NCBI GenBank assembly: GCA_018333605.1
Contig: JAGXSV010000061.1
Location: 1-63,247, forward strand
Length of the DNA stretch: 63,247 nt
Origin: Hydrogenophaga sp.
Lineage (GTDB): Bacteria > Pseudomonadota > Gammaproteobacteria > Burkholderiales > Burkholderiaceae_C
Direction: 5' to 3'
Of the stretch, positions 137-39,506 are shown piece after piece (position 1 is the stretch's first letter; the number at the start of each line of letters is the position of its first letter). The notes beneath the pieces were generated by a model that saw only the letters and a list, made by a program, of their open reading frames with translations, did no database searches and had not been told where the DNA came from. Both the position numbers and the translations under genes were made by a program.

Positions 137-790
137 CTACCGTTCAGGCCACATCGCCCCGGTGTCGGTCAGGATGGCATCGAGCGGCACGTCGTGAATT
201 TCGGGTCGCATCTCGGGCAGCCAGGAAAAGTCGTAGCCCAGGCCCACGGTGAAGGGCTTGGGCTGCAGGCTGGCCAGGGTGCGGTCGTAAAAGCCACCGC
301 CATAACCCAGCCGGTAGCCGCCCGGTCCGAAGCCCACGCAGGGCACAAAGATCAGTGTGGGTTCCACAATTTCGGTGTCCTTGGGCTTGGGAATGCCGTA
401 GGCGTCTTCTTCCATGGGGCAACCGGGGTACCAGGTGTAGAAGGTGAGCGTTTTGTCCACCTTGTTGACCACCGGTAGCGCAATGCGGCGGTGCAGCTGG
501 GCACCTTGCGCGTCTTCTTCCAGGCCCGCTTCTTGCCAGCGAAACAGCGCTGGCAAGGGGTCAAACTCGCCCTTGATGGGCCAGTAAGCGCCAATGATGG
601 CGTCGGGCCGCTCGATCAACCAGACCCGCATGACCCGCTGCAGCAGGTCGTTGCGCCAGGCGCGGTCGGCCAGGTTTTGGCGTTTGTCCACCAACGCTTT
701 TCGCCAGGCGGCTTTTTGCGTCACCACCGCTGATCCGCCGCCCTGCTTCACGGGCGGTTGAGGGGAACTTTGACCGTCTTTGTTGTCCAT
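137..790 (-). CDS. fau: 5-formyltetrahydrofolate cyclo-ligase
   Basis: This 217-residue protein catalyses the ATP-dependent conversion of 5-formyl-THF to 5,10-methenyl-THF in the cytoplasm and returns the formylated storage folate to the one-carbon pool. The family signature GYRLGYGGGFYDR lies near residues 158-170, and GAYWPIKGEFD near residue 65 fits the substrate-binding N-terminal half. The start chosen is ATG at 790 (MDNKDG). The open frame continues upstream through the opposite strand of slt, but that extension has no family similarity. It is divergent from the lytic transglycosylase gene, with 39 nt between the starts, and so probably shares a promoter region with it. The usual family length is about 190-200 residues, so the N-terminus may be slightly overcalled. 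Confidence 0.9.
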   Translation of the reverse strand: MDNKDGQSSPQPPVKQGGGSAVVTQKAAWRKALVDKRQNLADRAWRNDLLQRVMRVWLIERPDAIIGAYWPIKGEFDPLPALFRWQEAGLEEDAQGAQLHRRIALPVVNKVDKTLTFYTWYPGCPMEEDAYGIPKPKDTEIVEPTLIFVPCVGFGPGGYRLGYGGGFYDRTLASLQPKPFTVGLGYDFSWLPEMRPEIHDVPLDAILTDTGAMWPER

Positions 791-829
791 AATCAGCAGA
801 TGAAACTGGTAAGCCTGAAACAGGGAAAA

Positions 830-2806: not shown

Positions 2807-2868
2807 ACGGCGGGCACGCTGCGCGATCCCCTTGTACAACCGACTCGTCTACCCAACCAGACCCCTCC

Positions 2869-3825
2869 ATGAAAAACATCCTCGTCCTCGGCGGCACCGG
2901 CTTTGTGGGCCGCCATGTGTGTGAAAAGCTCCACCGCATGGGCTGGCGCATCACGGTGCCCACGCGCCGTGCCATCAACGCGGCCGCCGTGCAGCACCTG
3001 CCGCGCGTGACCGTGCTGGAAGCCGATGTGCACGACGAGGCCCAACTCACCCGCCTGCTGCCCGGGCACGACGCTGTGGTCAACCTGGTGGCCATCCTGC
3101 ATGGCAGCGAGGCGGCTTTTGAACGCGTGCATGTGGAACTGCCGGCCAAACTGGCCCGTGCCTGCACCGCCACGGGCGTGCGGCGTGTAGTGCACGTGAG
3201 TGCGCTCGGTGTGAGCCTGGACGGCCCGTCGCGCTACCAGCGCAGCAAGGCCCGCGGGGAAGAAGTTTTGCGCCAGGCCGACCTGGACCTGACGGTGCTG
3301 CGCCCCAGCGTGATCTTTGGCGCCGGCGACCGGTTTTTGAACCTTTTTGCACGCCTGCAAGCGCTGTTTCCGGTGATGCCGCTGGCCGGTGCACGCGCCC
3401 GCTTTCAACCCGTGTGGGTAGACGACGTGGCCAGCGCGGTGCTGGCGTGCCTGCAAGACGAGGGACTCCCGATGAGCACCGTGGGGCAGACTTTTGAATG
3501 CGCCGGGCCCGATGTGTTGACCCTGGGCGAACTGGTGCGCCTGGCCGGACGCCACGGCAGCACCGAGCGCCCCGTGTTGCCGCTGCCCATGGCCATCGGC
3601 CGGCTGCAGGCGTTCATGATGGAACTGGCACCGGGTGAGCCGCTCATGAGCCGCGACAACCTGGCCGCCATGTCGGTGGACAACGTGGCCAGCGGCCAGT
3701 GCCCCGGCTTTTCGGCACTGGGCATCGTGCCGGCGCGAGCAGAAGCGGTGGCGCCCAGCTACCTGGGCCACCGCGGCGGGCGCAGCGCCCTGCTGCAAGC
3801 CCGGCAAGGGACCTGGCGGCGTTGA
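2869..3825 (+). CDS. NDUFA9-like NAD(P)-binding epimerase-family protein
   Basis: This 318-residue atypical short-chain dehydrogenase has an N-terminal Rossmann motif GGTGFVG (residues 8-14) and belongs to the family annotated as complex I NDUFA9 subunit family protein in betaproteobacteria. In bacteria the role is unproven; relatives bind NADPH and are linked to quinone or respiratory functions. The usual YxxxK pair appears as YQRSK near residue 123, so catalysis is possible. The start is ATG 2869, directly before the glycine motif. The in-frame ATG at 2803 overlaps the slt stop and adds residues with no similarity. It probably follows slt in one transcript. Confidence 0.8.
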   Translation: MKNILVLGGTGFVGRHVCEKLHRMGWRITVPTRRAINAAAVQHLPRVTVLEADVHDEAQLTRLLPGHDAVVNLVAILHGSEAAFERVHVELPAKLARACTATGVRRVVHVSALGVSLDGPSRYQRSKARGEEVLRQADLDLTVLRPSVIFGAGDRFLNLFARLQALFPVMPLAGARARFQPVWVDDVASAVLACLQDEGLPMSTVGQTFECAGPDVLTLGELVRLAGRHGSTERPVLPLPMAIGRLQAFMMELAPGEPLMSRDNLAAMSVDNVASGQCPGFSALGIVPARAEAVAPSYLGHRGGRSALLQARQGTWRR

Positions 3826-22277: not shown

Positions 22278-22547
22278 TTACCGGTACGCCTCGCGCCGAT
22301 TGCCGATGCGCAGCACGCGCACCACGATGCGCTGATCCTGAATGTCGCAGACGAGGCGCCAGTCACCCACGCGGTACTTCCAGTAACTCCCCAGCCGGGC
22401 CCCAGACAACGCCTCGCCGATGCTGCGCGGGTCGTCCAAAGGTGACAGCCGGTCCCGCAGAAATCCGACCAATCTGGTTTGGATCGGGCGGTCGAGTTTC
22501 TTCAGTTCCTTCAGCGCATCCGGGTCGAACTCAATTTGCCAGGCCAA
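22278..22547 (-). CDS. RelE/ParE-superfamily toxin
   Basis: This 89-residue protein has the family fold signature: FDPDALKELKKLDRPIQTRL at the N-terminus, GSYWKYRVGDWRLVCDI in the middle, and VVRVLRIGNRREAYR with basic C-terminal residues typical of RelE mRNA interferases. Such toxins cleave mRNA on the ribosome and are neutralised by the antitoxin. It overlaps the upstream antitoxin gene by 17 nt, the usual toxin-antitoxin arrangement. Confidence 0.9.
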   Translation of the reverse strand: MAWQIEFDPDALKELKKLDRPIQTRLVGFLRDRLSPLDDPRSIGEALSGARLGSYWKYRVGDWRLVCDIQDQRIVVRVLRIGNRREAYR

Positions 22548-22743
22548 GCTCGCGCTCCGCTTCGGTCAGCGGGATGGTCTTGCGGTTCTTGCGCGCGCGA
22601 GCTTCAGCCAGGTAGAAGTCTTCAAGGTCGTCCAGGTGCTCCAGGATCGCCTCGCGTGCCAGCGCGGTTTTGGTGCGCCCGGTCTCCTGGGTCAGTCGAT
22701 CCAGACGGGCTTCGATGTCGGGGGTGAGACGGATGGCAAGCAT
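22531..22743 (-). CDS. RelB-like ribbon-helix-helix antitoxin
   Basis: This 70-residue protein begins with a ribbon-helix-helix DNA-binding segment (MLAIRLTPDIEARLDRLTQE, then GRTKTALAREAILEHL), followed by the DLEDFYLAEARARKNRK toxin-binding helix. The start ATG 22743 is preceded by GGAG at the right distance. A 20-bp palindrome directly upstream (22755-22774) is the likely operator for autoregulation. The pair lies in the accessory insertion between ruvB and ruvA and may stabilise it. Confidence 0.88.
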   Translation of the reverse strand: MLAIRLTPDIEARLDRLTQETGRTKTALAREAILEHLDDLEDFYLAEARARKNRKTIPLTEAERELGLAN

Positions 22744-22754
22744 GGGGCACTCCT

Positions 22755-22774
22755 TTGCTATACAAGTATAGCAA
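22755..22774. promoter_or_regulatory. Palindromic operator of the toxin-antitoxin operon
   Basis: The site TTGCTATACAAGTATAGCAA has two 9-bp arms and a 2-nt centre, ending 11 nt before the antitoxin start codon. On the minus strand it contains TATACT, a good -10 box, so binding of the ribbon-helix-helix antitoxin would block the promoter. No strong -35 was seen. Confidence 0.7.
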
Positions 22775-22828
22775 CCCATCTCGTTGCACGCTATTTTTTC
22801 TCCCAACGCGCATCCAAGCTCAGCCTCT

Positions 22829-22942
22829 TTAGACCGTGCAACCCGCTCGTTCACCCACTTCGCGCAGCAACTTCTCACACGCACCCACCGCCCGCATGGC
22901 CACTTCAAACTGTGATTGATTGGCCTTCAATATGTCGTCCAG
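22829..22942 (-). pseudogene. Detached 3' part of the unknown gene, after the amber codon
   Basis: Thirty-seven sense codons follow TAG 22943-22945 in the same frame and end at TAA 22829-22831. The encoded LDDILKANQSQFEVAMRAV and CEKLLREVGERA read as amphipathic helices. It has no start codon or ribosome site of its own, so it would be made only by readthrough of the amber codon. Confidence 0.55.
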
Positions 22943-23740
22943 CTACAGCGCGTCGTACCCGCCAAAGACATAAGAAACAGATTTCCGCGCACGGTCCTCC
23001 TTGAATTCCACGCCACCGTGACCTTCGACCTTGGTCTCAGAAAATCCAACCCGACGCGTGACACGCTCGACCTCTCCGAACTCGAAGTGCTGAGATATTC
23101 CGTGCGCTGCGCGATTGCGCCAATCACCGGTGGCGTCCCGGTAATCACCAGGATCCATTTGCTGGACATGGGCCATCAACGCCCCAGCCTCGTGCCACCC
23201 ACTGGACTTAGCCATGAACTGCGCCTCTGCTTCTTCCCGTCTCAGGAATACCGCGTGCGGCTTCTTATGGTTTTGTTGCAGTCGCTTGAATACCTTCGCG
23301 TCTTCTGCCAAAACATCCCGGTATCCAGCAACCACCCGCAGATTTCCGACATGAACCACTTGGGTAGCAAATCGGGTCAATCGATCTCGGGAGCCCGCTG
23401 GTTGGTGCAGGCAGAAGTACGCCAATGGCTCAACAAACTCTGACCGAACATCCCACCGATCCTTTTCGTCATTGATCGTTGCCAACACGCGGCTCCAAGC
23501 AGTCCAAGAACGCAACCGGTGATTCCACGCGTTGATCGCGTTGATCAACTCGTTGAGATTAGAGCTGAGCATTTGATCGCCGAACCTTGGTAGCGACCAC
23601 TCGCTGACTTCTTTCTCCAACCCATAGGGAAGAAACGGCTTCGCTGACGTATCTCGATCAAGCTCCAGCCAATACTGTTGGTATGCACCAGACAGCAGGG
23701 CGCGATAGCGGGCGATATGCGTTTCGCGATCGTCGTTCAT
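22943..23740 (-). CDS. Unknown protein, probably truncated by an in-frame amber stop, with an RNxxxH motif
   Basis: I do not recognise this 265-residue protein. It is mostly helical by composition, without signal peptide or membrane helix. Near residue 205 it has DWRNRAAHG, which fits the R-[N/D/H]-x3-H active-site motif of HEPN ribonucleases, but one motif is weak evidence. The frame ends at TAG 22943-22945 after GGYDAL and then stays open in the same frame for 37 more codons (LDDILKANQSQFEVAMRAV onward) to TAA at 22829. The tail has normal coding character, so the gene probably once encoded about 303 residues and carries a nonsense mutation. The start is ATG 23740, 9 nt after the ruvA stop, so it should be cotranscribed with ruvA. 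Codon use is less GC-rich than in its neighbours, which suggests transfer. Confidence 0.65.
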   Translation of the reverse strand: MNDDRETHIARYRALLSGAYQQYWLELDRDTSAKPFLPYGLEKEVSEWSLPRFGDQMLSSNLNELINAINAWNHRLRSWTAWSRVLATINDEKDRWDVRSEFVEPLAYFCLHQPAGSRDRLTRFATQVVHVGNLRVVAGYRDVLAEDAKVFKRLQQNHKKPHAVFLRREEAEAQFMAKSSGWHEAGALMAHVQQMDPGDYRDATGDWRNRAAHGISQHFEFGEVERVTRRVGFSETKVEGHGGVEFKEDRARKSVSYVFGGYDAL

Positions 23741-23749
23741 TGGGCGCAA

Positions 23750-24328
23750 TCACTTCGCCAGCGCCTTCAGCGCCAGCTTGATGCCTTCGCTCACCCCCAC
23801 ATCCGCCGGCAGGGCTTTCAGCGCGGCCGCCGCGTCCTTCTCGTTGTAGCCCAGCGCCATCAGCGCCTGCTGGATGTCGCTCTGCGCGTCGCTGCGCGCC
23901 AGGCCGGCACCGGGCAGGTTGAGGTCGGCGCCGAGCTTGCCCTTGAGTTCGAGCAGCAGGCGCTCGGCGGTCTTCTTGCCGATGCCCGGCACCTTGACGA
24001 TGCGGCCGGCTTCCTGGGCAGTCACGGCCTGCGCCAGTTCGGCCACCGAGAGACCCGAGAGCACCGAGAGCGCCGTGCGCGGGCCGATGCCGCTGATCTT
24101 GACCAGCTGGCGGAACGCCTCGCGCTCCGCAGCGCTGCCAAAGCCGTAGAGCAGTTGTGCGTCTTCGCGCACCACGAAGTGCGTGAGCAGCGCCACTTTT
24201 TCGCCCAGCGCGGGCAGGTTGTAGAAGGTGCTCATCGGCACGTCCACCTCGTAACCGACGCCGTGGCAGTCGATCAGGATCTGGGGCGGATTTTTCTCCA
24301 GCAGCGTGCCGGTCAATTTGCCTATCAT
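23750..24328 (-). CDS. ruvA: Holliday junction-binding protein RuvA
   Basis: This 192-residue protein forms tetramers that clamp four-way junctions and recruit RuvB. Domain I ([26 protein letters not shown]), the helix-hairpin-helix motifs ([15 protein letters not shown] and [19 protein letters not shown]) and the flexible C-terminal domain III ([13 protein letters not shown]) are all present. Start ATG 24328 is the conserved MIG start. The open frame continues upstream through an intergenic repeat to 24484 and is not coding there. It is transcribed divergently from phoH and followed by the unknown gene. Confidence 0.96.
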
Positions 24329-24355
24329 TGGGGTTTCTTTCACAGATGGTCGTTC

Positions 24356-24420
24356 GCCGGGCCGCCCCAAGAACGACCGCCCCCCTCGGGGGGCCTGGCG
24401 CAGCCAGGTCAGGGGGCTCA
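24356..24420. repeat. Comamonadaceae-type palindromic repeat between ruvA and phoH
   Basis: It contains GGGCCGCCCCAAG, then CCCCCCTCGGGGGG, then CTGGCGCAGCCAG. It shares its first half with the copies at 70-136 and 48082-48155 but has a different 3' half. It occupies the divergent promoter region of ruvA and phoH. Confidence 0.7.
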
Positions 24421-24440
24421 CATTATTCTGGATTATCGGT

Positions 24441-25427
24441 TTGATCCTCCGCCACACCTTCTCCCCGCCCGACAACCTGCGCATGGGTCACCTCTGCGGG
24501 CCCATGGACAGCCACATCCGCAGCATCGAGGCGGGCCTGCAGGTCAAGGTGGCGCACCGCTTCGAGCAGTTCCGCATCGAAGGCCCCAAGGCCAAGGCCA
24601 ACCAGGCGCTGGAGACCCTGCAGGCGCTGTACGAGATGGCGAAGAAGCCGATCCCGGCCGAAACCGTGCAGCTGATGCTGAGCGGCGACACCGCGCTGGC
24701 CGAGCCGGGCGACGGCGCGCTGGCGATGCAGACGCGGCGCGGCGAGGTGCGCGGGCGCACGCCGGCCCAGACGCGCTACCTGGAGAACATGGCCACGCAC
24801 GACATCACCTTCGGCATCGGCCCGGCCGGCACCGGCAAGACCTACCTGGCCGTGGCCTGCGCCGTGGACGCGCTGGAGCGCAGCGCGGTCCAGCGCATCG
24901 TGCTCACCCGCCCGGCCGTGGAAGCGGGCGAAAAGCTCGGCTTCCTGCCTGGCGACCTGGGCCAGAAGGTGGACCCGTACCTGCGCCCGCTGTACGACGC
25001 GCTGCACGACCTGATGGGCTTCGACAAGGTGCAGAAGGCGTTCGAGCGCCAGCAGATCGAGATCGCGCCGCTGGCCTTCATGCGCGGGCGCACGCTCAAC
25101 CACGCTTTCGTGATCCTGGACGAGGCGCAGAACACCACCGTCGAGCAGATGAAGATGTTCCTCACCCGCATCGGTTTCGGCAGCAAGGCCGTGGTCACCG
25201 GCGACGTGAGCCAGATCGACCTGCCGCGCACCGAGCTCAGTGGCCTGATCGACGCCGAGCGCGTGCTCAAGCGCGTGCAGGGCATCGCCATCACGCGCCT
25301 GAGCAGCGCCGACGTGGTGCGGCACCCGCTGGTGGCGCGCATCGTGGACGCCTACGACGCGCGCAGCAGCGAGGCCGACGATCGGCTGCCGCCGCTGCCC
25401 AAACGCGTGCGCCGCAAAGCCACCTGA
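24441..25427 (+). CDS. phoH: PhoH family ATPase
   Basis: This protein of about 328 residues is a cytosolic P-loop ATPase. Walker A GPAGTGKT is near residue 130, [16 protein letters not shown] near residue 158, Walker [10 protein letters not shown] near residue 223, and GDVSQIDLP near 255 is a PhoH signature. An N-terminal KH-like segment (residues 30-60) suggests RNA binding. The start is taken as TTG 24441, giving [20 protein letters not shown], which is where family similarity begins. The ATG at 24306 would translate the repeat, and the site before TTG is weak. It is directly followed by ybeY (7 nt), the typical proteobacterial pair for rRNA processing. Confidence 0.9.
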
Positions 25428-25434
25428 TCACACC

Positions 25435-25893
25435 ATGACCCTGCCCTCATTGAGTCTCTCCCTGCAGTTCGGCGCGCTGGCCGATGCCGCCCTCCACCGC
25501 GCCGCGCTGCCGCGCCACACCGTCGCCCGCTGCATCCGCCACGCGCTGGAGACCGACGCGGAAATCACCGTGCGCATCGTGGATGCCGAAGAAGGCCAGG
25601 CCCTGAACCGCGACTACCGCGGCAAGGACTACGCCACCAACGTGCTGACCTTCGACTACGCAACCGACCCCCTGGTGATGGCCGATCTGGTGCTCTGCGC
25701 ACCGGTCGTGGCACGCGAGGCCGCCGAGCTGAAGAAACCGCTGGCCGAACACTACGCCCACCTGCTGGTGCACGGCACCCTGCACGCGCAGGGCTGGGAC
25801 CACGAGACCAGCGAGGCCGACGCCGAAGCGATGGAGGCGCGCGAGACGGCGATCCTGGCCGGGCTGGGGCAGCCGAACCCTTACGCGGCCTGA
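25435..25893 (+). CDS. ybeY: Endoribonuclease YbeY (16S rRNA 3'-end maturation)
   Basis: This 152-residue zinc-dependent RNase is required for maturation and quality control of 16S rRNA. The metal site [11 protein letters not shown] (H-x3-H-x5-H) lies near residues 112-122, and the substrate groove motif NVLTFDY is near residue 63. Length is typical. Its 3' end overlaps the convergent chorismatase gene by 13 nt. Confidence 0.95.
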
Positions 25894-26861
25894 ACCACGC
25901 GCAGCCCCTGGGCCTCGATCTCCACCAGCAACTCGCTGCGGCAGACGTCGGCCTGCAGGTACAGTGTTTCAGCGCTGGCCACGCGCCCGGCCATCTCGGC
26001 CCTCACCGCGCCCAGGTCGGCCGCGTGGCGGATGTAGACCCGGTAGCTCAGATCGGCGAGCGCAAAGGCCCCCCGGGGGCTGAGGCGCTGCGCCTCGGCC
26101 AGCACGGCCTCGATGTTGTCCAGGCTCTCGCGGGTCTGTGCGGCCACGTCGCCCAGGTGCACGCTCTGGTGCCCGACGATGCTCGCCGTGCCGGAAATGA
26201 ACAGCAGTTCCTGTCCCGGCGGATAGACCAGGGCGGCGCGTGAAAAAGTCGGGCTGCGCGGCCCGTACTCGCCGGGATACAGAAAGGCGCTGACCTGGCG
26301 CGGGTTCTCCACCGGCACGGCCGGCGTGGACCCGGCCAGAAAAGCGACCGACAGCGGGCCGGAGCGCACCCCCAGTGCACAGGCCGCCGGCACCCGGCCC
26401 ACCACGCAGCGCGACGCGCCCTCGAACGCCTGGGCGCGGCCCAGGTTGAACTGCCGGTAACGCTCCAGGCCCTGTTGGTCCTGGTTGATGTCGGCCATGT
26501 AGTTCCAGAGCCGCCACAGGTGCGGCAGGCCCTGGGCATCGAGCAGGCGAAAGAGGCGGGCATACGCGGCTTCGCTGGCGGCCTGCAGCCCGACGTCCGG
26601 GCCCTCGTCGATCTCGATCACGCCAAACAGCTGATCGCCCTGGCGCCGCCAGCGGATGCCCTCGCTCTCGCCCGCCAGCGGCGGACTGTCCACCAGCCAG
26701 GCCTCGTGCCACGGTGTGCTGCCCGCGCCCAGCAGGGGCGCGCGCAGCGGCTGCAGCGGCCAGGCCGGCGTTGCACCGTTCCAGGGCTCCCCCACCAGGC
26801 TCTCGCCCAGCACGTGACCGGCAGCGACGGGGTTCGCGGAAGAATGAAAAATCAGGGCCAT
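25881..26861 (-). CDS. FkbO/Hyg5/XanB2-type chorismatase
   Basis: This 326-residue protein is related to chorismate-cleaving enzymes with a YjgF-like trimer fold. Visible blocks are [33 protein letters not shown], the conserved [24 protein letters not shown] near residue 205, and [17 protein letters not shown] near residue 240, all hallmarks of this family (often misannotated as pteridine-dependent dioxygenase). The closest role known to me is XanB2, which makes 3- and 4-hydroxybenzoate plus pyruvate from chorismate. If so, it could feed ubiquinone or aryl pigment synthesis, but the product type cannot be read here. Start ATG 26861. It is the last gene of the transporter-dtd-chorismatase unit. 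Confidence 0.75.
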
Positions 26862-26866
26862 GCCAC

Positions 26867-27307
26867 TCAGCTCATGTTCAAGGGAATGGTCACCGGGCCG
26901 TCGTTGACCAGGTGCACCTGCATGTCGGCGCCAAAGCGCCCGGTCTGCACCACCGGGTGCTGCGCCCGAGCCGCTTCGACAAAGCGGTCGTACAGCGCTT
27001 CGCCCAGACCCGGCGGCGCGGCAGCGGAGAAACCGGGCCGGTTGCCACTCTTCGTGTCGGCCGCCAGGGTGAACTGGCTCACGACCAGCAGGCCACCGCC
27101 CACGTCCTGCACGCTGCGGTTCATCTTGCCGGCTTCGTCGCTGAAGATGCGCAGCTTCAGGATCTTGGCCAGCAGCTTCTGGCCCACGGCCTCGGTGTCG
27201 TCCGGTTCGGCGCACACCAGCACCAGCAGGCCGGCGCCGATCTGGCCCACGGTTTCACCCGCAATCACCACGCGGGCTTCGCTCACGCGCTGCAACAGGG
27301 CGATCAA
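26867..27307 (-). CDS. dtd: D-aminoacyl-tRNA deacylase
   Basis: This 146-residue dimeric enzyme removes D-amino acids (and misacylated Gly) from tRNA. The catalytic SQFTLAAD near residue 78 and the Gly-cisPro motif NDGPVTIPL near residue 135 are both present, with NRPGF between them. The start is TTG 27307, reading (M)[14 protein letters not shown] as in the family. It overlaps the upstream transporter stop by 4 nt (TTGA), indicating translational coupling. The long upstream frame is a shadow. Confidence 0.92.
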
Positions 27308-28230
27308 ATCAGATCCTTGGGGTCGTCGAAGTGGGCTTCCACATCGCTGGGCAACAACTGGATCGACGCGCGCAAGCCGGGCACGGCGCTCATCAGCGCT
27401 TGTTCGACGCTGGCGCGAACGGCCGCAGACCGCCCCAGCGACCAGCTCGCGGGCATGTGCATGTGCATGTCCACAAAGCGGCGCTGGCCGGCCTTGCGGG
27501 TACTGACATGGTCGAAACGGATGATGGAAGCTTCGTCGCGCTGGCTCGCGAAACCATCGAGCGTCTGCTGAATGGTGGCCATGACCTCGGGCTCCACCGC
27601 TTCGTCCATCAGCCCCTGCGACGAACGCCACATCAGATGAAAGCCCTCCTTCAGGATGTTCAGCGCCACGCCGATGGCGACCACCGGATCGAGCCAGAGC
27701 CAGCCAGTGAAGTGAACCAGCGCGATGCCGACCACCACGCCGGCCGAGGTCCAGACGTCGGTGATCAGGTGTTTGGCATCGGCTTCCAGTGCGATGGACC
27801 GGTGCTGTTTGGCCGCGCGGAACATCACCCAGGCCAGCAGCCCGTTGAGCGCCGAACTGGCCACCGACAGCGCCAGACCCCAGCCCACCTGCTCGATGGG
27901 TTGCGGGTCGAGCAATCGGTGCACCGCCGTCCAGACGATGCCCAGCGCCGCCACAATGATCAGGATGCCCTCGAAGCCGGACGAAAAATACTCGGCCTTG
28001 TGGTGACCATAAGGGTGCTCTTCATCGGCCGGGCGGGCGGCGATGGTCACCATCACGAGGCCGAAAATGGCGCTCGCCAGGTTCACCAGCGACTCCATCG
28101 CATCCGACAGCAGCCCCACCGAATCGGTGACCACCCAGGCCAGGGTCTTGAGCGTGATGGTGACGAGTGCGACCACCACGGACGCCATGAGCAGGCGCCG
28201 GGGGGTGAGAAATCGGGAGTCCAGAATCAT
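27304..28230 (-). CDS. Cation diffusion facilitator family transporter (FieF-like)
   Basis: This 308-residue inner membrane antiporter exports divalent metals (Zn, Fe, Co, Cd) against protons. Six helices are expected. The metal site residues appear in [15 protein letters not shown] near residue 37 and [16 protein letters not shown] near residue 147 (HxxxD). The cytosolic [13 protein letters not shown] loop and the C-terminal ferredoxin-like domain with the HMHMPAS segment are present. Start ATG 28230. It is the first gene of the unit with dtd and the chorismatase and is divergent from glgB. Metal specificity is not clear. Confidence 0.9.
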
Positions 28231-28351
28231 CCGCCCATTGTCGCCGAGGCTCACGGGCGTTCCGAGCCTCCCAAGAGCAGACCCCAACGGCCTCAGGATG
28301 TAACCAGCGGGTTCCCGTTCGGTGCCAGAATGCCCCAACAGCGTGCCTCCC

Positions 28352-30265
28352 ATGAACCCACCACCCACCTCCCCCACCCCTCCCGGCGCGCCCACCAGCT
28401 TCTGGATCGGCGAGACCGACGCCTGGCTGCTGGCCGAAGGCAAACACCTGCGGCCCTGGCAGAAGCTCGGCGCCCACACCACCGAAATGGACGGCGTGGC
28501 GGGCACGGCGTTCGCGGTCTGGGCGCCCCATGCGCGCCACGTGGGCCTGACCGGTGACTTCAACGGCTGGCAGCCCCAGCCCATGCGGTTTCGCCCCGAG
28601 TGCGGCGTGTGGGAGCTGTTCGTGCCCGGTGCCGGCGTGGGCGCCTGGTACAAGTTCGATGTGCAGGGCGCCGACGGCCGGCACGTGATGAAGACCGACC
28701 CCTACGCACGCCACACCGAACTGCCCCCGGGCAACGCCGCGCGCGTGTGCGAGCCGCTGCGCAAGTTCGCCGCGCCCCCAGGCCCGCACCAGCGGCCCGC
28801 CGCGCCCATGGCCATCTACGAGGTGCACGCCGGCTCCTGGAAGCGCCCCGACGGCCCGCACACCCTCCCCACCTGGGACGACTTGGCCGCCCACCTCGTC
28901 CCCTACGCCGCCGGCCTGGGCTTCACCCACCTGGAGCTGCTGCCCGTCAGCGAACACCCGTTCTACGCCTCCTGGGGTTACCAACCCACGGGTTTGTATG
29001 CGCCCACCGCTCGCCACGGCTCTCCCGAGGCCTTTCGCCGCTTTGTGGACGCGGCGCACGCCGCCGGGCTGAAAGTGATCCTCGACTGGGTGCCGGCCCA
29101 CTTCCCCAGCGATGAACATGCACTGGCGCGCTTCGACGGCACGGCGCTGTACGAACACGCCGACCCGCGCGAAGGTTTCCACCGCGACTGGAACACCCTG
29201 ATCTACAACTTCGGCCGCCACGAGGTGCGCAACTTCCTGGTCGGCAACGCGCTGTTCTGGGTCGAGCAGTTCGGCATCGACGGCCTGCGCGTGGACGCGG
29301 TCGCGTCCATGCTCTACCGCGACTACAGCCGCCCGCCCGGCGAGTGGGTGCCCAACCGGGACGGCGGGCGTGAAAACTACGAAGCCATCGCCTTCCTGCG
29401 CGAGGTGCATGAGGTGCTGCAGCGCGAAGCCCCGCAGGCCACCACCATCGCCGAGGAGTCCACGGCCTTCCCGCGCGTGACCGGCCCGGTAGCCGAAGGG
29501 GGTCTGGGTTTCGACCACAAATGGAACATGGGCTGGATGCACGACACCCTGGCCTACTTTGCGATCGACCCGGTACACCGCCGCTGGCACCACAACAAGC
29601 TCACCTTCGCCATGATGTATGCCTACAGCGAAGACTATTGCCTGCCCTTGTCGCACGACGAGGTGGTACACGGCAAGGGCTCGTTGCTGGGCAAGATGGC
29701 CGGCGACCGCTGGCAGCAACTGGCCAACCTGCGCGCCCTCTACGCCTGGATGTACGCGCACCCGGGGAAGAAGCTGCTGTTCATGGGTGCCGAACTGGCC
29801 CAGCCTGCCGAGTGGGACCACGACAGCGAGCTGTCCTGGCACCTGCTGGACGACCCCGCGCACGCCGGCGTGCAGCGCCTGGTGTGCGATCTCAACCACC
29901 GCTACCGCGTCCAGCCGGCCCTGTACGCACGCGACACGGACCACCACAGCTTCCAGTGGCTGGTGGTGGACGACGCTGACCACTCGGTGCTGGCCTTCGC
30001 GCGCTACGGCCACCGGCTCGAAGACACGGTGGTGTTGATCGCCAACCTCACCCCCATGGTGCGACACGGCTACCGCGTGGGCCTGCCGCACGGTGCTGGC
30101 TGGCACGAAACCCTGAACACCGACTCGGCACACTACGGCGGCAGCAACGTGGGCAACCATGGCCGGGTGCTGGCCGACGATCTCCCCCTGCACGGCCAGC
30201 GCTGGTCCGCTGCGCTCACCCTGCCGCCCCTGGCGGTGTTGTGGCTGCAACCCGAAAAGTCATGA
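28352..30265 (+). CDS. glgB: 1,4-alpha-glucan branching enzyme or related GH13_9/10 family enzyme
   Basis: This 637-residue enzyme introduces alpha-1,6 branches into glycogen. The N-terminal CBM48 domain ([20 protein letters not shown]) is followed by a GH13 barrel with [20 protein letters not shown], the nucleophile Asp in [11 protein letters not shown], acid Glu in TIAEESTAF and the [13 protein letters not shown] block. The last block is a branching enzyme marker. The GYQPTG motif and 637-residue length also fit maltooligosyltrehalose trehalohydrolase relatives (TreZ), but the [10 protein letters not shown] block and operon position favour GlgB. Start ATG 28352 is preferred over 28322; neither has a strong ribosome site. 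It heads the glg operon and overlaps glgX by ATGA. Confidence 0.9.
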
Positions 30266-32508
30266 CGCCCCCCTGCACCGCTTCTCACCCGCATACCGAA
30301 GTTGAGACGCCTCCTGGGTTGCGGCAAAGCCGGTTCCGCGGGTGCACCGCAAGCGCCGCCGCGCCAGCCCTGGGCGCCTGCCTCGATCACCGGGACGGCT
30401 GCGACGGCGTGCGCTTCGCCGTCTGGGCCCCCCAGGCCGAAGGCCTGGAGGTGTGCCTGTTTGACACCGCGACCGACCCCGAAAACCGCCGCATCACGAT
30501 GGCACCCGCGGGCAACGGCGTCTGGCACACCTTCGTGCCCGGCCTGGCTGCGGGCCAGCTTTATGGCCTGCGCGCCAGCGGGCCCTGGCAGCCCGAGGCC
30601 GGCCACCGATTCAACCCGGCCAAGCTCCTGCTCGATCCTTGGGCGCAGGCTCTGGTGGGCAGCACCGAACGACTGGCGCTGCAGGCCGGCCACACGGTGG
30701 CCGACCCCTTGCACCCCACCCAGGCTTGGGCCCAGCACCAGCCCGATCCGCAGGACAACGCCACAGACATGCCCAAATGCGTGGTGCTGGACACCGCAGC
30801 CGAGCTGAAGGCCGGCAGCGCCATCGCGCCCAGCCCGATGCTGAGCGGCGAGCACCTGGTGATCTACGAAGCCCATGTGAAAGCGCTGACCCGTCTGCAC
30901 CCCGAAGTGCCCGAGGCACAGCAAGGCCGGTACGCCGCGCTCGCCCACCCCGCGGTGATCGGTCACTTGCAGCGCCTGGGCATCACCAGCGTGTGCCTGC
31001 TGCCGGTACACCAGCACATCAGCGAACGCCACCTGCTGGCACACGGCTTGGTCAACCACTGGGGCTACAACACGCTCAGCGCCTTTACGCCCGAGCCTGC
31101 TTACGCCGCCAGCACGGGGGGGCAGGACCCGGCCACGGCCGAGGCTGCTGCCGCGGTGCGCGCCGAGTTCCGCCAGATGGTGGACGCGCTGCACCGCGCC
31201 GGCATCGAGGTGGTGCTCGATGTGGTGTTCAACCACACCGCCGAGAGCAACCTCGATGGTCCCACGCTGAGCTGGCGCGGTCTGGGCCAAGCCGACTGGT
31301 ACGCCATGGGCGAGCAAGGCGTTCCGCACAACTTCAGTGGCTGCGGCAACAGCCTCAACGTCAGTGAACCGCGCGTGGTGCAGTGGGTGATGGACAGCCT
31401 GCGCTGGTGGGTGCAGGCCTATGGCGTGGACGGTTTCCGTTTCGACCTCGCGGTCTCGCTGGGTCGCGTGGCGGCACTGGGCCACAGCTTTCACCCCCAC
31501 GCCGCGCTGCTGACCGCGATGCAGCAGGATCCGGTGTTGCGCGGCGTGCGGCTGATCGCCGAGCCTTGGGACGTGGGCCCCAACGGCTACCACACCGGCG
31601 ACTTTGCGCCGGGTTGGCTGGAGTGGAACGATGCCTTTCGCGACGGTGTACGAGCCTTCTGGCTCGGCCACCCGACCTCGCTGGGTGAACTGGCCAACTG
31701 CTTGTGCGCGAGCAGCGACCTGTTTGACCGGCAGGGCAGGCTGCCCGCGACCAGCGTGAACATGCTCACCGCACACGACGGTTTTACCTTGGCCGACCTC
31801 ACGGCCTACAGCCACAAGCACAACGACGCGAACTTTGAGGAAAATCGCGACGGACACAACCACAACCTCAGCGCCAACGCCGGCGTCGAAGGCCCTACCG
31901 ACGATCCGCTGGTGCAGCACCAGCGCGGCCTGTGGCGCAGGGCCCTGCTGGCCACCCTGTTCTGCGCACAGGGCACGCCGCAGTTGCTCGCCGGTGACGA
32001 AATCGGCCACAGCCAGCAAGGCAACAACAACAGCTACTGCCAGGACAACCCCCTCACCTGGCTCGACTGGGCCCAAGCCAACCAGGATCTCACCGACTTC
32101 GTGAGCCGTCTGTCTGCGCTGCGCCGCCGGCACCCAGGCCTGCGTCCGGAACGCTGGTTAAGCGGCCAATCGCTGACACCCGGCGAACCAGACGACATCG
32201 TCTGGCTGCACGGCGACGGCCGGACCATGTCCACCGAGGACTGGCACAACAGCCGCCACTGCACCCTCGGCGCGGTCATCACGGTCGGTGAAGACGGTCA
32301 GCCCCCGACCGAGCGCCTGCTGATGCTCTGGCACGCCGGTCGCGGCCAAAGCACGCTCGTCCTGCCCGAAGGCAGTTGGTCACTGCGACTGGACAGCGCA
32401 CGCGGTTTCGTCGCCATGGGTGGGGCCGCCGGCGAGGTCGTGAGCGGTTCGCTGCACTGTGACGAAACCCGGGTCTGCATGCTGGTCCAGCGTGTCCAAG
32501 GCGCATGA
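30262..32508 (+). CDS. glgX: Glycogen debranching enzyme, isoamylase type
   Basis: This 748-residue GH13_11 enzyme hydrolyses alpha-1,6 branches left after phosphorylase action. CBM48 ([19 protein letters not shown]) begins near residue 50. The catalytic regions are VVFNHTAE near residue 325, [13 protein letters not shown] near residue 390 (nucleophile Asp), [13 protein letters not shown] near residue 432 (acid Glu) and [11 protein letters not shown] near residue 507. Start ATG 30262 overlaps the glgB stop. The first 40 or so residues (including QSRFRGCT) are not conserved and correspond to a piece of an intergenic repeat, so the original start may have been further in. Confidence 0.9.
30319..30342. 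repeat. Repeat fragment inside the 5' end of glgX
   Basis: The stretch GGCAAAGCCGGTTCCGCGG matches the core of repeats in the paaD-paaE gap (near 49570) and, in reverse orientation, near 56545. Here it is in frame and codes for RQSRFRG of GlgX. Outside this short core the similarity is not obvious. Confidence 0.5.
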
Positions 32509-32527
32509 AACTTCACCGCATCACGGC

Positions 32528-34042
32528 ATGAACCACCCCCACAGCGATCTGCTTTCGCGCCGCACCAGTGGTGTGCTGCTGCACATCACCAGCCTGCCGG
32601 GTCCCAACGGCTCGGGTGACTTCGGACCCGCCGCACGCCATTTCGTGGACTGGCTGACCTCTGCCGGACAGTCCCTGTGGCAGATCCTCCCGCTGTCACC
32701 CGCCGGCCCGGGCAACTCGCCCTACCAGAGCGTCTCGGCCTTTGCCGGCAGTCCGCTCATGGTGGATCTGGACGATCTGTGGCACCAGGGCTGGCTGCCC
32801 TGGATGGCCCGCAAGGGTTTTGAGCACAGCCGCTGTGACTTCGAACGCGTCGCGCCTTGGCGCATGGCCCGCCTGCGCAAGGCCTGGGACGGCTTCACGC
32901 AACAGGCCACCCCGGTCTGTCGCGAGGCCCTGGCCGATTTCAGCACCGAGCAGGCCCACTGGCTTGACGACTACGCCCTGTTCATGGTGCTCGATGAACG
33001 CTACGGGGGTCCCTGGTCGCTCTGGCCCGAGCCACTGGCCCGGCGCGACGCCGCTGCGCTGGACGCGGTGCGGGAACAGGCCATGCATGCGCTGGGTTTC
33101 TGGCGCTTCGTGCAGTGGCGCTTCTGGGTGCAGTGGCAGGCGCTGCGCGCCTACGCACGCGATCGGGGCGTGCAGGTGGTGGGCGACGCGCCCATTTTCG
33201 TCGCCCACCACAGCGCAGACGTCTGGGCCCACGCCGGCGAATTCCTGCTGGACGACTTCGGTCAGCCGCTGGTCGTGGCGGGCGTGCCGCCCGACTACTT
33301 CAGCACCACGGGCCAGCGCTGGGGCAACCCGCTCTACAACTGGGAGGCCATGGCACACCGCGGTTACCGCTGGTGGAAAGACCGTCTGATCCACCTGTTC
33401 CAACAGGTCGACGTGGTGCGGCTCGACCATTTCCGCGGCTTTGAAGCGCACTGGGAAATTCCGGCCAGCGAGCCCACCGCCGAAGCGGGTCGGTGGCAGC
33501 CCGGCCCGGGCCGGGCGTTTTTCAAGGCGATCGAACACGAACTGGGTCGGTTGCCCATCATTGCGGAAGACCTGGGCCTGATCACGCCCGAGGTGAGGAC
33601 CTTGCGCGAAGCCTGCGGCTTCCCGGGCATGCGCATTCTGCAGTTCGCCTTTGGCGGTGGACCGACCAACCCCTACCTGCCGCACAACATGGAACGCCAC
33701 ACCGTGGCCTACACAGGCACCCACGACAACGCAACCACTGTGGACTGGTGGGCCAATGCGACGGCGCTTGAAAAAACCTCGGCACGCGACTACCTCGGAC
33801 CGTGTGTGGACACCGAGCCGAACTGGACACTGATTCGTTCGCTGTCGCAATCGATTGCGAACACGCTGGTCGTTCCGTTCCAGGACGTGCTCGGTCTTGA
33901 CGCCGAGCACCGCATGAACACCCCGGGACGGGCCACCGACTGCTGGGAATGGCGTTTTGACTGGGCTCAGGTTGATCACCGCCCGGCCGAGCGTCTGGCC
34001 GCCATGACCCGTGCCCACGGCCGATGGCCGGTTCACCGCTGA
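32528..34042 (+). CDS. malQ: 4-alpha-glucanotransferase (amylomaltase)
   Basis: This 504-residue GH77 enzyme disproportionates maltodextrins and releases glucose. The family N-terminus [20 protein letters not shown] is at residues 14-33. Catalytic blocks are [15 protein letters not shown] near residue 219, the nucleophile region [11 protein letters not shown] near residue 297, acid Glu in IIAEDLG near residue 344, and [13 protein letters not shown] near residue 398. The start at ATG 32528 (MNHPHSDLL) is chosen because the frame start at 32459 lies within glgX. It follows glgX by 19 nt. In this operon it recycles short glucans from GlgX and GlgP. Confidence 0.94.
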
Positions 34043-35360
34043 TCAGCGACAACCCGCCAAGAGACCCTTCCACCGATTGCAAAAAACAGGAGTTACGCAT
34101 TTCCAGAAGACCACGCCCCAGTACCTCGCCAAACGCACCATCGCCCTGGTGCTCGCAGGCGGTCGCGGCTCACGCCTGCAGGCGCTGACCGACCGCCGCT
34201 CCAAGCCCGCGGTGTACTTCGGCGGCAAGTTCCGCATCATTGACTTCGCGCTCTCCAATTGCCTGAACTCGGGCGTGCGCCGCATCTCCGTGCTGACGCA
34301 GTACAAAAGCCACTCTCTGCTGCGCCACCTGCAACGCGGCTGGAGCTTTCTGCGCACCGATTTCAATGAGTTCATCGACCTGCTGCCCGCGCAGCAGCGC
34401 ATGAACGACGAGCGCTGGTACCTCGGCACGGCCGACGCGGTCTACCAGAACCTGGACATCCTGATGGCCCACAAACCCGAGTACATCCTGGTGCTGGCCG
34501 GCGACCACATCTACAAGATGGACTACGCCGAACTGATCGCAGACCATGTGGCACAGGGCAAGAAGTGCACCGTGGGCTGCATCGAGGTGCCGATTGAAGA
34601 AGCCAGCGCCTTCGGCGTGATGTCCATAGACGCCGAGCGGCGCATCGTCGACTTCCTGGAAAAGCCCGCCAACCCACCCGCCATGCCGGGCAAACCCGGC
34701 GTGGCGCTGGCCAGCATGGGCATCTACGTGTTCGACGCGCAGCACCTGTTTGAAGCGTTGGCCAAAGACGCAGCCACGCCCGGATCCAGTCGCGACTTTG
34801 GCAAGGACGTGATCCCCGCCATGGTGGCCGCAGGCGATGCGGTGGCACATCCCTTCGGCATGTCCTGCGTCAAGAGCACGCCCGAGGCGCCCGCCTACTG
34901 GCGCGACGTCGGCACGGTGGACGCCTACTGGGAAGCCAACCTGGACCTGACCAACACCATCCCCGAGCTCGACATGTACGACCGCAGCTGGCCAATCTGG
35001 ACCTACCAGGAGCAGCTCCCGCCAGCCAAATTCGTGTTCGACGACGACGACCGTCGCGGCATGGCGGTGGACTCCCTGGTTTCTGGCGGCTGCATCATTT
35101 CGGGTGGCCTGGTGCGTCGCTCGGTGTTGTTCTCCAGGGTGCAGATCCACTCCTATGCCACGGTGGAACAAGCCGTGTTGCTGCCCGAAGTGAGTGTGGG
35201 TCGTCACTGCAGGTTGCGCAAGGTCGTCGTCGACAACGGTTGCGTCATTCCCGAGGGCATGTGCATCGGTCTCGATGCTGCCGAAGATGCGCGCCGCTTC
35301 TTCCGAACCGACAGTGGCGTGGTGCTGGTCACGCGCGACATGCTCGAGGCACTGAAATAG
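34011..35360 (+). CDS. glgC: Glucose-1-phosphate adenylyltransferase (ADP-glucose pyrophosphorylase)
   Basis: This enzyme makes ADP-glucose from glucose-1-phosphate and ATP, the committed step of glycogen synthesis. [37 protein letters not shown] is in the N-terminal part and [18 protein letters not shown] and a left-handed helix C-terminal domain follow, with normal allosteric basic residues. Family similarity begins near [12 protein letters not shown] (about 34131). The only in-frame ATG, 34011, overlaps malQ by 32 nt and has no ribosome site. A strong AGGAG at 34088-34092 is followed in frame only by ACG (34095), CAT and TTC. The true start is therefore uncertain, and a mutated or non-canonical start is possible. 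Confidence 0.88.
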
Positions 35361-35481: not shown

Positions 35482-37001
35482 ATGAATTCACCCAAAGTCC
35501 TTTATGTCTGTTCCGAGGTTTACCCGCTGCTCAAGACCGGCGGTCTGGCCGATGTCAGCGCAGGCCTGCCACCGGCGCTGACATCGGCCGGTGCCGAGGT
35601 GCGGCTGCTGCTGCCGGCCTTTCCGGCGGTGGTGGCCGGTGTCGTGCCCGAGGGTCCGGCCCTGATGGTGCCCGCCAGTGGCCACGCAGACTTGCCGGCC
35701 GGGCTGGGCCCGCAACCCGACACTGTCCAGGGCCCCGCGCCCTGGCTGCAGCCCGGTCGGATGCGAGAAAACGGGCAACCGGTGTGGCTGCTGCACGCAC
35801 CCGGCCTTTATGGGCGCGGCGGCAACCCTTATGTGGACCGCAGCGGCCAGCCCTGGCCTGACCGTGCCGAACAGTTCGCCTGGCTGGGCTGGGCCGCGGC
35901 CCTGCTCGGCACCGGGCTGGATCCAGCCTGGCAACCTGATGTGGTGCACGGGCACGACTGGCACGCCGGCCTGACCTTCGCCTACCTGCACCAGCTTCGG
36001 TGCGCCGGTGTGCGGGCACCAGGCTCGGTCTTCACCATCCACAACCTCGCTTACCAGGGCGTCTTCCCCGCCAGCGTGCGCCCGCGCCTGGGCCTGCCCG
36101 ATGCGCTGTTCCATATACAGGGGCTGGAATTCCACGGCCAGGTCAGCTTCATGAAAGCGGGACTCCAGTACAGCGACGCCATCACCACCGTAAGCCCGAC
36201 TTACGCGCGCGAGATCACCACCCCCGAACAAGGCTGCGGGCTCGATGGCGTGCTGCGCGAGCGCCAGGCGGTGCTGCACGGCATCCTCAACGGCGTGGAC
36301 GACGCCGTCTGGAACCCGGCCGCCGATGCGCGGGTGCATCCCGGCTTCGACGCCGAACACCTGCAAGGCAAGGCACTGGCCAAGGCGCGCCTACAAGAAA
36401 CCATGGGCTTGCAGCCCGCGCCCGACGCGTTGCTCTTCTCCGTGGTCAGCCGCCTGACCGAGCAGAAAGGCTTGCACCTCTTGCCCCACGTGGTGGACGA
36501 CCTGGTGCAGCGCGGAGGCCAGCTCGTGGTGCTGGGCGCGGGGGACTCGGCGATTGAGCAGGCCCTGGCCGGGTGGCGTTGCACATCGGTTACGACGAGG
36601 CCCTGGCCCACGGGATCATTGCCGGTGCCGACGTGATCCTGCTGCCCTCACGCTTTGAACCCTGCGGTCTGACGCAGCTCTATGGCCTGCGCTACGGTAC
36701 CCTGCCGCTGGTGCGGGCCGTCGGCGGCCTGGCCGACACCGTGACCGACTGCAGTCTGGAAAACATGGACGACGGCAGCGCCAGCGGCTTCGTGTTTCAC
36801 GAGCTGAACGTGGCCGGTCTCTCGTCCGCGATGCGCCGGGCCTTTGCGCTGCAACGCCGGCCGTCCGACTGGCGCGCCGTGCAACAGCATGCCATGGCCC
36901 TGCGCTTCGACTGGGCACGGGCCGCCAGCGCCTACCTGCAGGTGTATCGGCAAGCCGCCGGAGACCCCGCCCCAACCACCCGTGGCACAGCATCGGCCTG
37001 A
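35482..37001 (+). pseudogene. glgA: Glycogen synthase gene broken by an internal deletion and frameshift
   Basis: The first frame (35482-36636) gives a normal GT5 N-terminal half: the ADP-glucose Lys in LLKTGGLADV near residue 14, VVHGHDWHAG, FTIHNLAYQG and VVSRLTEQKGL. It reads [13 protein letters not shown] and then turns into [11 protein letters not shown] and stops. The rest of the enzyme lies in another frame from 36573: [15 protein letters not shown], then [18 protein letters not shown] with the catalytic Glu. Between EQAL and VALHIGYDE relatives have about ten residues, but only 5 nt remain (36568-36572), so about 25 nt have been lost. Neither part alone can be active. The gene lies 121 nt after glgC and 21 nt before glgP. 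Confidence 0.85.
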
Positions 37002-37022: not shown

Positions 37023-39506
37023 ATGTTCAACACCCTGTCACCCACCGCGAGCCTTGCCACCGGCACGGTCCCGTTTGATTACGACCATGTGGACAACTCG
37101 GTCGAGGCCCTGCGCAAATCCATCGCCAACCGCCTGGTCTACGCCGTCGGCAAAGACGTTCAATCGGCCACCCGGCGCGACTGGTTGTTTGCCCTGTTCC
37201 ATGCCGTGCGGGACCGCACCATGGACCGCTGGCGCGAAACCCTGACCAGAGCGCAGGACAGCGATGCCAAGCGCGTGTACTACCTTTCGATGGAGTTCCT
37301 GACCGGCCGCGCGCTCACCAATGCCTTGCTGTCGATCGGCATCTATGACGCCGCCCGGACCGCCTGCACCCAGCTGGGCGCCGACTTCGACGCGCTGCTC
37401 GACCTGGAAACCGACGCCGGCCTGGGCAACGGTGGCCTTGGTCGCCTGGCGGCCTGCTTCCTCGACTCCATGGCCACGGTGGGCCTGCCGGGCATGGGCT
37501 ACGGCATCCGCTACGACTTTGGCATGTTTGCCCAGCGCATCGTCGATGGTCGCCAGGTCGAAGAACCCGACTACTGGCTGGTCAACGGCAACCCGTGGGA
37601 ATTCATGCGTCCCGAATTCAGCTATCCCGTCCAGTTCGGTGGCCGCTTGGTGCAGGATGGTGAGCACGTGTCCTGGGTCGATACCGATGACGTGATTGCC
37701 ACTGCCTACGACAGTGGCGTACCCGGTCACGAGCTCAGCAGTGTCTCCACCCTGCGGCTGTGGACCGCGCGTGCCACCAGCGGCATCAACCTCGATGCCT
37801 TCAACAAAGGCGACTACATGCTGGCAGTGGAGGCGAAAAACAAGTCTGAAAACGTCTCCCGCGTGCTCTATCCCGACGACAGCACCGATCACGGCAAAGA
37901 GCTGCGGCTGCGCCAGGAATACTTCTTCGTCAGCGCCTCGTTGCAGGACATCGTGCGCCGCTACCTGAAGAACCACGGTTCGTTCGACCAGTTCGCGGAC
38001 AAGGTGGCCATCCACCTGAACGATACCCACCCCGCCCTCGCCGTGCCCGAGCTCATGCGCATCCTGGTGGACACACACCACCTGGACTGGGACACGGCCT
38101 GGGACCTGTGCCGGCGCACCTTCAGTTACACCAACCACACGCTGATGCAGGAAGCCTTGGAGACCTGGCCGGTGGACCTGATGGGCCGCCTGCTACCGCG
38201 CCACCTGCGCATCATCTACGACCTGAACGCGCATTTTCTGGCCGAGGTGCACGCGCGCTTCCCCGACGACAACGAGTTGTTGCACCGCGTCTCGCTGATC
38301 GACGAGCGCGGTCAGCGCCGCGTGCGCATGGCCTCACTATCGGTCTTGGCCAGCCACAAGATCAACGGCGTTTCTGCCCTGCACAGCCAGCTGATGGTCG
38401 AAACCCTCTTTGCCGACTTTGCCCGCCTTTGGCCCGAGCGCTTCTGCAACAAGACCAACGGCATCACCCCGCGGCGCTGGCTCTCGCAGGCCAACCGCCC
38501 GCTGTCAACGCTGATCGACGCCCGCATCGGCACCACCTGGCGCCGCAACCTCGACGAGCTTTCCCGGCTGCGCGAGCTGGCCACCGACCCGGCGTTCAAC
38601 AACGCCTTCCGGCTCGCCAAGGCGCAGAACAAACGGCGCCTGGGCGAGTGCATCGCGAAAGAAACCGGCATCGTCGTCCATCCGGAGAGCCTGTTCGACG
38701 TGCAGGTCAAGCGCATGCACGAATACAAGCGCCAGTTGCTCAACGTGCTGCACGTCGTCACGCGCTACCAGCAGATCCTCGCCCGCCCCAACGCCAACTG
38801 GGTCCCCCGTACCGTGATCTTTGCCGGCAAGGCCGCGTCGGCTTACCACATGGCCAAGCTGGTGATCAAACTCATCAACGACGTGGCGCGCACCATCAAC
38901 AATGACAAGCGCGTCGGCGACAAGCTCAAGGTGGTGTTCATCCCCAACTACCGCGTTTCCCTGGCCGAGATCATCATTCCGGCGGCCGACCTGTCTCAGC
39001 AGATTTCGACCGCCGGCACCGAAGCCTCTGGCACCGGCAACATGAAGTTCGCGCTCAACGGTGCACTCACCATTGGCACCTGGGACGGCGCCAACATCGA
39101 GATTGCAGAAAATGTCGGGCTGGACCATATCTTCATCTTCGGCAACCGGACGGAACAGGTCGCCGCGTTGCGCGCCAGCGGCTACAACCCGCGCCGCTAC
39201 TACGACAACAACTACGACCTCAAGACGGCCATCGACCGCATCGCTCAAGGCGCCTTCAGCCCTGAGGAGCCGAACCGGTTCAACGACATCACCCGCACGC
39301 TGCTGGAGTCTGACCACTACCTGCTCCTGGCGGACTACGCTGAATACCTGGCCGCTCAGCAAAAGGTGGACGACCTCTATCGTCGCCCCAGCGAGTGGAC
39401 ACGCCAGGCCATCATGAACGTGGCAGGGATGGGCATGTTCTCATCCGACCGCACCATCCGCGAATACGCGAACGACATCTGGAACGTCAAACCGCTGTTT
39501 GACTGA
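37023..39506 (+). CDS. glgP: Glycogen/starch/alpha-glucan phosphorylase
   Basis: This 827-residue GT35 enzyme releases glucose-1-phosphate from glycogen ends. YYLSMEFLTGRALTNAL near residue 80, DAGLGNGGLGRLAACFLDS near residue 130, and the pyridoxal-phosphate lysine motif EASGTGNMKFALNGALTIGT near residue 665 are all intact. Length matches the family. It is the last gene of glgB-glgX-malQ-glgC-glgA-glgP. With glgA broken, this phosphorylase, MalQ and GlgX could still degrade imported or residual alpha-glucans. Confidence 0.96.
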   Translation: MFNTLSPTASLATGTVPFDYDHVDNSVEALRKSIANRLVYAVGKDVQSATRRDWLFALFHAVRDRTMDRWRETLTRAQDSDAKRVYYLSMEFLTGRALTNALLSIGIYDAARTACTQLGADFDALLDLETDAGLGNGGLGRLAACFLDSMATVGLPGMGYGIRYDFGMFAQRIVDGRQVEEPDYWLVNGNPWEFMRPEFSYPVQFGGRLVQDGEHVSWVDTDDVIATAYDSGVPGHELSSVSTLRLWTARATSGINLDAFNKGDYMLAVEAKNKSENVSRVLYPDDSTDHGKELRLRQEYFFVSASLQDIVRRYLKNHGSFDQFADKVAIHLNDTHPALAVPELMRILVDTHHLDWDTAWDLCRRTFSYTNHTLMQEALETWPVDLMGRLLPRHLRIIYDLNAHFLAEVHARFPDDNELLHRVSLIDERGQRRVRMASLSVLASHKINGVSALHSQLMVETLFADFARLWPERFCNKTNGITPRRWLSQANRPLSTLIDARIGTTWRRNLDELSRLRELATDPAFNNAFRLAKAQNKRRLGECIAKETGIVVHPESLFDVQVKRMHEYKRQLLNVLHVVTRYQQILARPNANWVPRTVIFAGKAASAYHMAKLVIKLINDVARTINNDKRVGDKLKVVFIPNYRVSLAEIIIPAADLSQQISTAGTEASGTGNMKFALNGALTIGTWDGANIEIAENVGLDHIFIFGNRTEQVAALRASGYNPRRYYDNNYDLKTAIDRIAQGAFSPEEPNRFNDITRTLLESDHYLLLADYAEYLAAQQKVDDLYRRPSEWTRQAIMNVAGMGMFSSDRTIREYANDIWNVKPLFD

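Follow-up and report, generated by a model that had tools for sequence, protein, structure and literature searches.

Can a bacterium whose glycogen operon is otherwise intact still build glycogen from ADP-glucose when its synthase gene, glgA, is divided between two reading frames? The question arises in Hydrogenophaga sp. from a contiguous stretch of 63,247 nucleotides, the whole of which was analyzed and is called the window here. It has three parts: whether the break is a genuine lesion, how and when it arose, and what it would mean for the cell. We consider it probable that the window carries a real and very recent loss-of-function allele of glgA, produced by a 25-nt deletion between short repeats in an operon that is otherwise intact.

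The glycogen operon is intact except for glgA

The window belongs to a 2.74-Mb draft assembly of 83 contigs that is 62.22% complete and 0.69% contaminated, probably a metagenome bin. Its glycogen genes lie in the order glgB, glgX, malQ, glgC, glgA, glgP, and the same order is found in two related loci, L033 and L046. Each operon gene except glgA passed the curated family cut-off of at least one model, which bears out the original prediction that glgB, glgX, malQ, glgC, and glgP are complete. The malQ coordinates given below are the limits of the open reading frame (ORF), and the true start probably lies further in. The features are:

28343..30262, + strand: glgB, branching enzyme, intact (NF003811, 924.8 bits; cut-off 741)
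30241..32508, + strand: glgX, debranching enzyme, intact (TIGR02100, 792.5 bits; cut-off 640.9)
32459..34042, + strand: malQ, 4-alpha-glucanotransferase, intact (TIGR00217, 342.6 bits, scanned from 32501; cut-off 205.65)
34092..35360, + strand: glgC, glucose-1-phosphate adenylyltransferase, intact (TIGR02091, 509.6 bits; cut-off 424.9)
35482..36636, + strand, frame 1: glgA N-terminal piece, GT5 domain with a short out-of-frame tail (PF08323, 237.9 bits; TIGR02095 positions 2–341)
36564..36575, + strand: deletion junction, 25 nt missing (GGCCGG at 36567–36572; comparison with P0001 and the L033 repeat)
36573..37001, + strand, −1 frame: glgA C-terminal piece (TIGR02095 positions 352–476; protein P0121)
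37023..39506, + strand: glgP, glycogen phosphorylase, intact (TIGR02093, 1172 bits; cut-off 552.9)

The two halves of GlgA are encoded in different frames

The glgA frame runs from the ATG at 35482 to the residues EQALAG, continues with 20 foreign residues, and ends at a stop codon at 36634–36636. The C-terminal part of GlgA is found in the −1 frame, which is open from after the TGA at 36555–36557 to the stop at 36999–37001 and matches TIGR02095. Both the frame change after EQALAG and the continuation of the C-terminal half in another frame from 36573 had been predicted. The TIGR02095 profile is thus split: of its 477 positions, 2–341 align at 35494–36570 and 348–476 at 36564–36953. The second ORF is not a chance frame, because 127 of its 142 residues match the GlgA model with an E value of 7.3e-57.

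The N-terminal piece has the PF08323 catalytic domain and contains near its N-terminus, within LLKTGGLADV, the KTGGL motif that is diagnostic for GT5 glycogen synthases; on its own it still scores above the TIGR02095 cut-off (338.6 versus 328.45 bits). No single frame gives a full-length profile match, and the ten-residue C-terminal motif expected of a functional GlgA is confined to the −1 frame ORF. Relative to intact orthologues the frame is clearly broken: glgA is one open frame at the same operon place in L033, L046, and L055, and so is the gene for P0001, which is known as a protein. This comparison with relatives is one that the original prediction had proposed as a check. P0001 also aligns to the structurally characterized family member 2qzs_A over residues 5–499, whereas the window departs from the family in its broken frame, its 25 missing nucleotides, and its out-of-frame SRFEPCG motif. 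The Glu of SRFEPCG is Ala in chain 3cop_A.

Exactly 25 nucleotides are missing

P0001 (514 aa) is the closest intact relative and is 97% identical to the GlgA of the window, from which it differs at 10 of 363 residues in the N-terminal piece and at 3 of 145 in the C-terminal piece (13/508 in all). It has six residues between the regions that match the two pieces, and the pieces themselves overlap by 7 nt, giving 25 missing nucleotides. The same figure comes from the motif blocks: EQALA and VALHIGYDE are separated by nine residues (27 nt) in P0001 and by 2 nt (36571–36572) in the window, so that exactly 25 nt are missing where the original prediction had put the deletion at about 25. That prediction was also right that the blocks have moved closer together, but its figures of about ten residues normally and 5 nt remaining become nine residues and 2 nt, values that depend on where the blocks are cut.

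The spacing that has been shortened is nearly constant among relatives. When we scanned 142 loci (not all of them with glgA, and with some genomes present twice), the blocks were 27 residues apart in 83 of the 85 pattern matches and 36 apart in the other two. At the protein level the pattern matched 109 of 120 relatives, all with a spacing of 27 residues.

The deletion may have arisen by slippage between short repeats

The junction in the window reads GGCCGG (36567–36572). As a proxy for the parent sequence we used L033, the nearest intact relative for which DNA was available (~83% nucleotide identity), in which two copies of GGCCG, spaced by 25 nt, stand at the place of the junction. Among the 40 rows compared, only L033 and L131, which are identical in sequence, have a repeat of at least 5 bases at 25-nt spacing there. 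The majority have no such repeat at the junction; L060 has one elsewhere, and in L014 CCCTG is repeated at 25-nt spacing four bases upstream of the junction place. If 25 nt are removed from L033 glgA at every possible place, 1097 distinct products result, of which 7 show at least 5 bases of microhomology. The L033 repeat together with this low count makes a slippage-type deletion the likeliest origin.

We infer that replication slippage between the two short direct repeats would have removed 25 nt of glgA. The resulting shift would put the second half of the enzyme out of frame and end the product after 21 further codons, leaving a shortened GlgA that is predicted to lack the C-terminal motif and the remainder of the C-terminal part. 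Bacterial pseudogenes formed by short-repeat deletions are a known kind. The glgA of the window resembles them in its single small deletion, in the short direct repeat at the ends of the deleted stretch in the parent proxy, and in being intact otherwise, and we noticed no notable difference from them.

The loss appears to be recent

Neither glgA piece contains a further stop or frameshift. The dN/dS values of the window against L033, L055, and L046 were 0.163, 0.180, and 0.144 for the C-terminal piece and 0.180, 0.213, and 0.237 for the N-terminal piece, compared with 0.408, 0.322, and 0.380 (C-terminal part) and 0.255, 0.258, and 0.282 (N-terminal part) for the three pairs of intact genes. 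The relaxed selection expected of a pseudogene after its lesion was therefore not seen in the C-terminal piece (0.144–0.180 against the three relatives), and dN/dS gave no sign of relaxed constraint in the broken gene, a test with little power if the lesion is recent. Because there is no second lesion, no relaxed constraint, and near identity to the intact P0001, the loss is, as far as sequence comparison can date it, recent. A close relative retains the gene, as the intact P0001 shows at 97% identity.

Population variant, assembly artefact, or working gene

Intact and deleted alleles may both be present in the species, with the assembly showing one of them. This possibility, which overlaps with our preferred reading, is a tentative one: it gains from the recent date of the lesion and from an intact P0001 that differs at so few residues, but those 13 differences suggest a sister strain and not the same clone.

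It is rather improbable that glgA is intact in the organism and that the deletion was introduced by amplification, strain merging, or gap closing. The draft state and the 62.22% completeness of the assembly leave room for such an error, and the same gene region is broken by a clear assembly artefact in another genome of the genus (G056). In addition, the contig of the window contains a 5-kb tract ~99.4% identical to another species, so that a mosaic assembly is possible. Against this, the sequence of the window shows neither an N nor a duplication at the junction. Over the region in common with L033 (about 26.9–45.5 kb) 15 genes were compared; glgA alone has its match divided between two frames, and none of its 14 neighbors is split. 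These genes were picked by hand, and antisense shadow ORFs, which in some cases give two-frame matches as well, were excluded. Short-read assembly graphs, moreover, are not normally joined at so few shared bases.

The C-terminal ORF of the broken gene is also listed more than once. P0121 (140 aa) is identical to the second ORF of the window read from the TTG at 36579, and its entry comprises 2 member sequences on 3 contigs, the longest of which (107,251 bases) exceeds the contig of the window. This speaks against an error of one assembly, although the assemblies are possibly not independent. The identical neighboring GlgC, P0241, is likewise listed on 3 contigs, but its longest (60,705 bases) is shorter than the contig of the window, and the set differs from that of P0121.

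That glgA still functions, by −1 ribosomal frameshifting or as two separately translated pieces that assemble, is scarcely credible. In its favor, the two frames overlap and the second is offset by exactly −1, GTG (36573) and TTG (36579) codons stand where the second piece begins, and that piece shows no relaxed constraint. Against it, inspection by eye against the consensus sequences revealed neither an X XXY YYZ slippery heptamer at the junction nor a clear Shine–Dalgarno-like site, folding of the junction was no better than that of shuffled sequences (z 0.78; 158 of 200 shuffles folded at least as well, in a run with DNA parameters on the already shortened sequence that says nothing on the parent), the shifted product would be short of residues where the spacing in relatives is nearly constant, and recency explains the missing decay. 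The evidence as a whole describes a loss of glgA that is ordinary and recent and consists of a single lesion, either fixed or a population variant, with a residual chance of artefact.

ADP-glucose would probably not be polymerized

No glycogen could be detected in a glgA knock-out of E. coli from the Keio collection in M9 medium with glucose (PMC7546213). The window resembles this knock-out in being an operon in which the synthase step alone is lost, and differs from it in carrying a natural allele, known from its sequence, with malQ inside the operon. Because its first product lacks SRFEPCG, and by analogy with the E. coli knock-out, the glgA allele of the window is probably inactive; we infer this from the reading frame and the analogy together.

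Searches of the organism's own assembly, in its 62.22% complete state, gave no substitute. The second glgA or GlgM proposed in the original prediction was not found there: TIGR02095 returned nothing beyond the broken gene except weak matches, and the best TIGR02149 (GlgM) match reached 63.7 bits, where the cut-off is 302.4. PF11896 (GlgE) had no match in the same assembly. ADP-glucose is therefore probably not polymerized in cells that carry the allele, unless the 38% of the genome that is missing encodes a second synthase. Such cells would be unable to extend glycogen from ADP-glucose and would keep the enzymes of branching, breakdown, and maltodextrin turnover. A breakdown-only pathway of this kind, with ADP-glucose made but not polymerized, would fit the E. 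coli knock-out.

MalQ and GlgB could still make branched glucan from maltodextrins, as work in E. coli has indicated. It is highly doubtful that the deletion has been favored or kept in the population, with the cells living on imported maltodextrin instead of making glycogen from the sugar nucleotide. If it were so, the cells would have dropped the synthase while retaining ADP-glucose synthesis, MalQ, branching, and breakdown.

The importance of the broken allele is small beyond the organism of the window. It carries the caution that glg genes in a draft genome do not prove a complete glycogen pathway; the opposite caution comes from G056, where a similar glgA break is an assembly artefact.

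Loss of the synthase alone is unusual in the genus

We surveyed 67 Hydrogenophaga genomes, some of them incomplete, with thresholds of E 1e-60 or better for glgC and 1e-25 or better for glgA. glgC was present in 33 genomes, including that of the window, and glgA in the same 33; at these thresholds neither gene was found in the other 34. The two genes thus seem to have been acquired or lost as a pair, and their occurrence in the same genomes makes loss of the synthase alone unusual in the genus.

glgA is in one piece in 29 of the 33 genomes, split in the window and in G056, and cut by contig ends in G019 and G070. The partial matches in G019 and G070 were rejected as breaks, since they stop where the contigs do. 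We also rejected a convergent loss in G056, whose gene is interrupted by one N, after which the flank is repeated in inverted orientation, the mark of an assembly artefact. The affected contig (C45 of G056, our locus L034; QBMB01000140.1, 11,399 bases) is artefactual from position 7547 of L034 onwards, and this public sequence could be reported as a frameshift.

A sample of 250 genomes from the family gave 104 with a match at E 1e-30 or better. Among the matches listed at this threshold, which leaves weaker short pieces unlisted, only the glgA of the window is split between frames. G220 was considered as a further broken gene and rejected, its divergent copy lying inside a 537-aa open frame. 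A second, partial glgA copy (positions 1–407) occurs in G175.

Tracts of high identity next to the operon

Upstream of the glgA lesion, positions 23750–28707 of the window form a tract of ~5 kb that is ~99.4% identical (28 mismatches in 4958 bases) to Hydrogenophaga aromaticivorans D2P1, in L046 and neighboring stretches. Its flanks show about 67–92% identity per 250 bases or have no counterpart, and on the right the tract stops abruptly at 28707, some 365 bases into glgB. The tract represents either a recent recombination between species or an assembly chimera.

Positions 22500–25114 are listed as 100% identical to a stretch of another genome of the genus (G023, contig C33, positions 563–3177). 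G023 also holds an 86% copy of part of this region on contig C98, and because it has both, we suspect that a piece of the organism of the window has perhaps been binned into G023.
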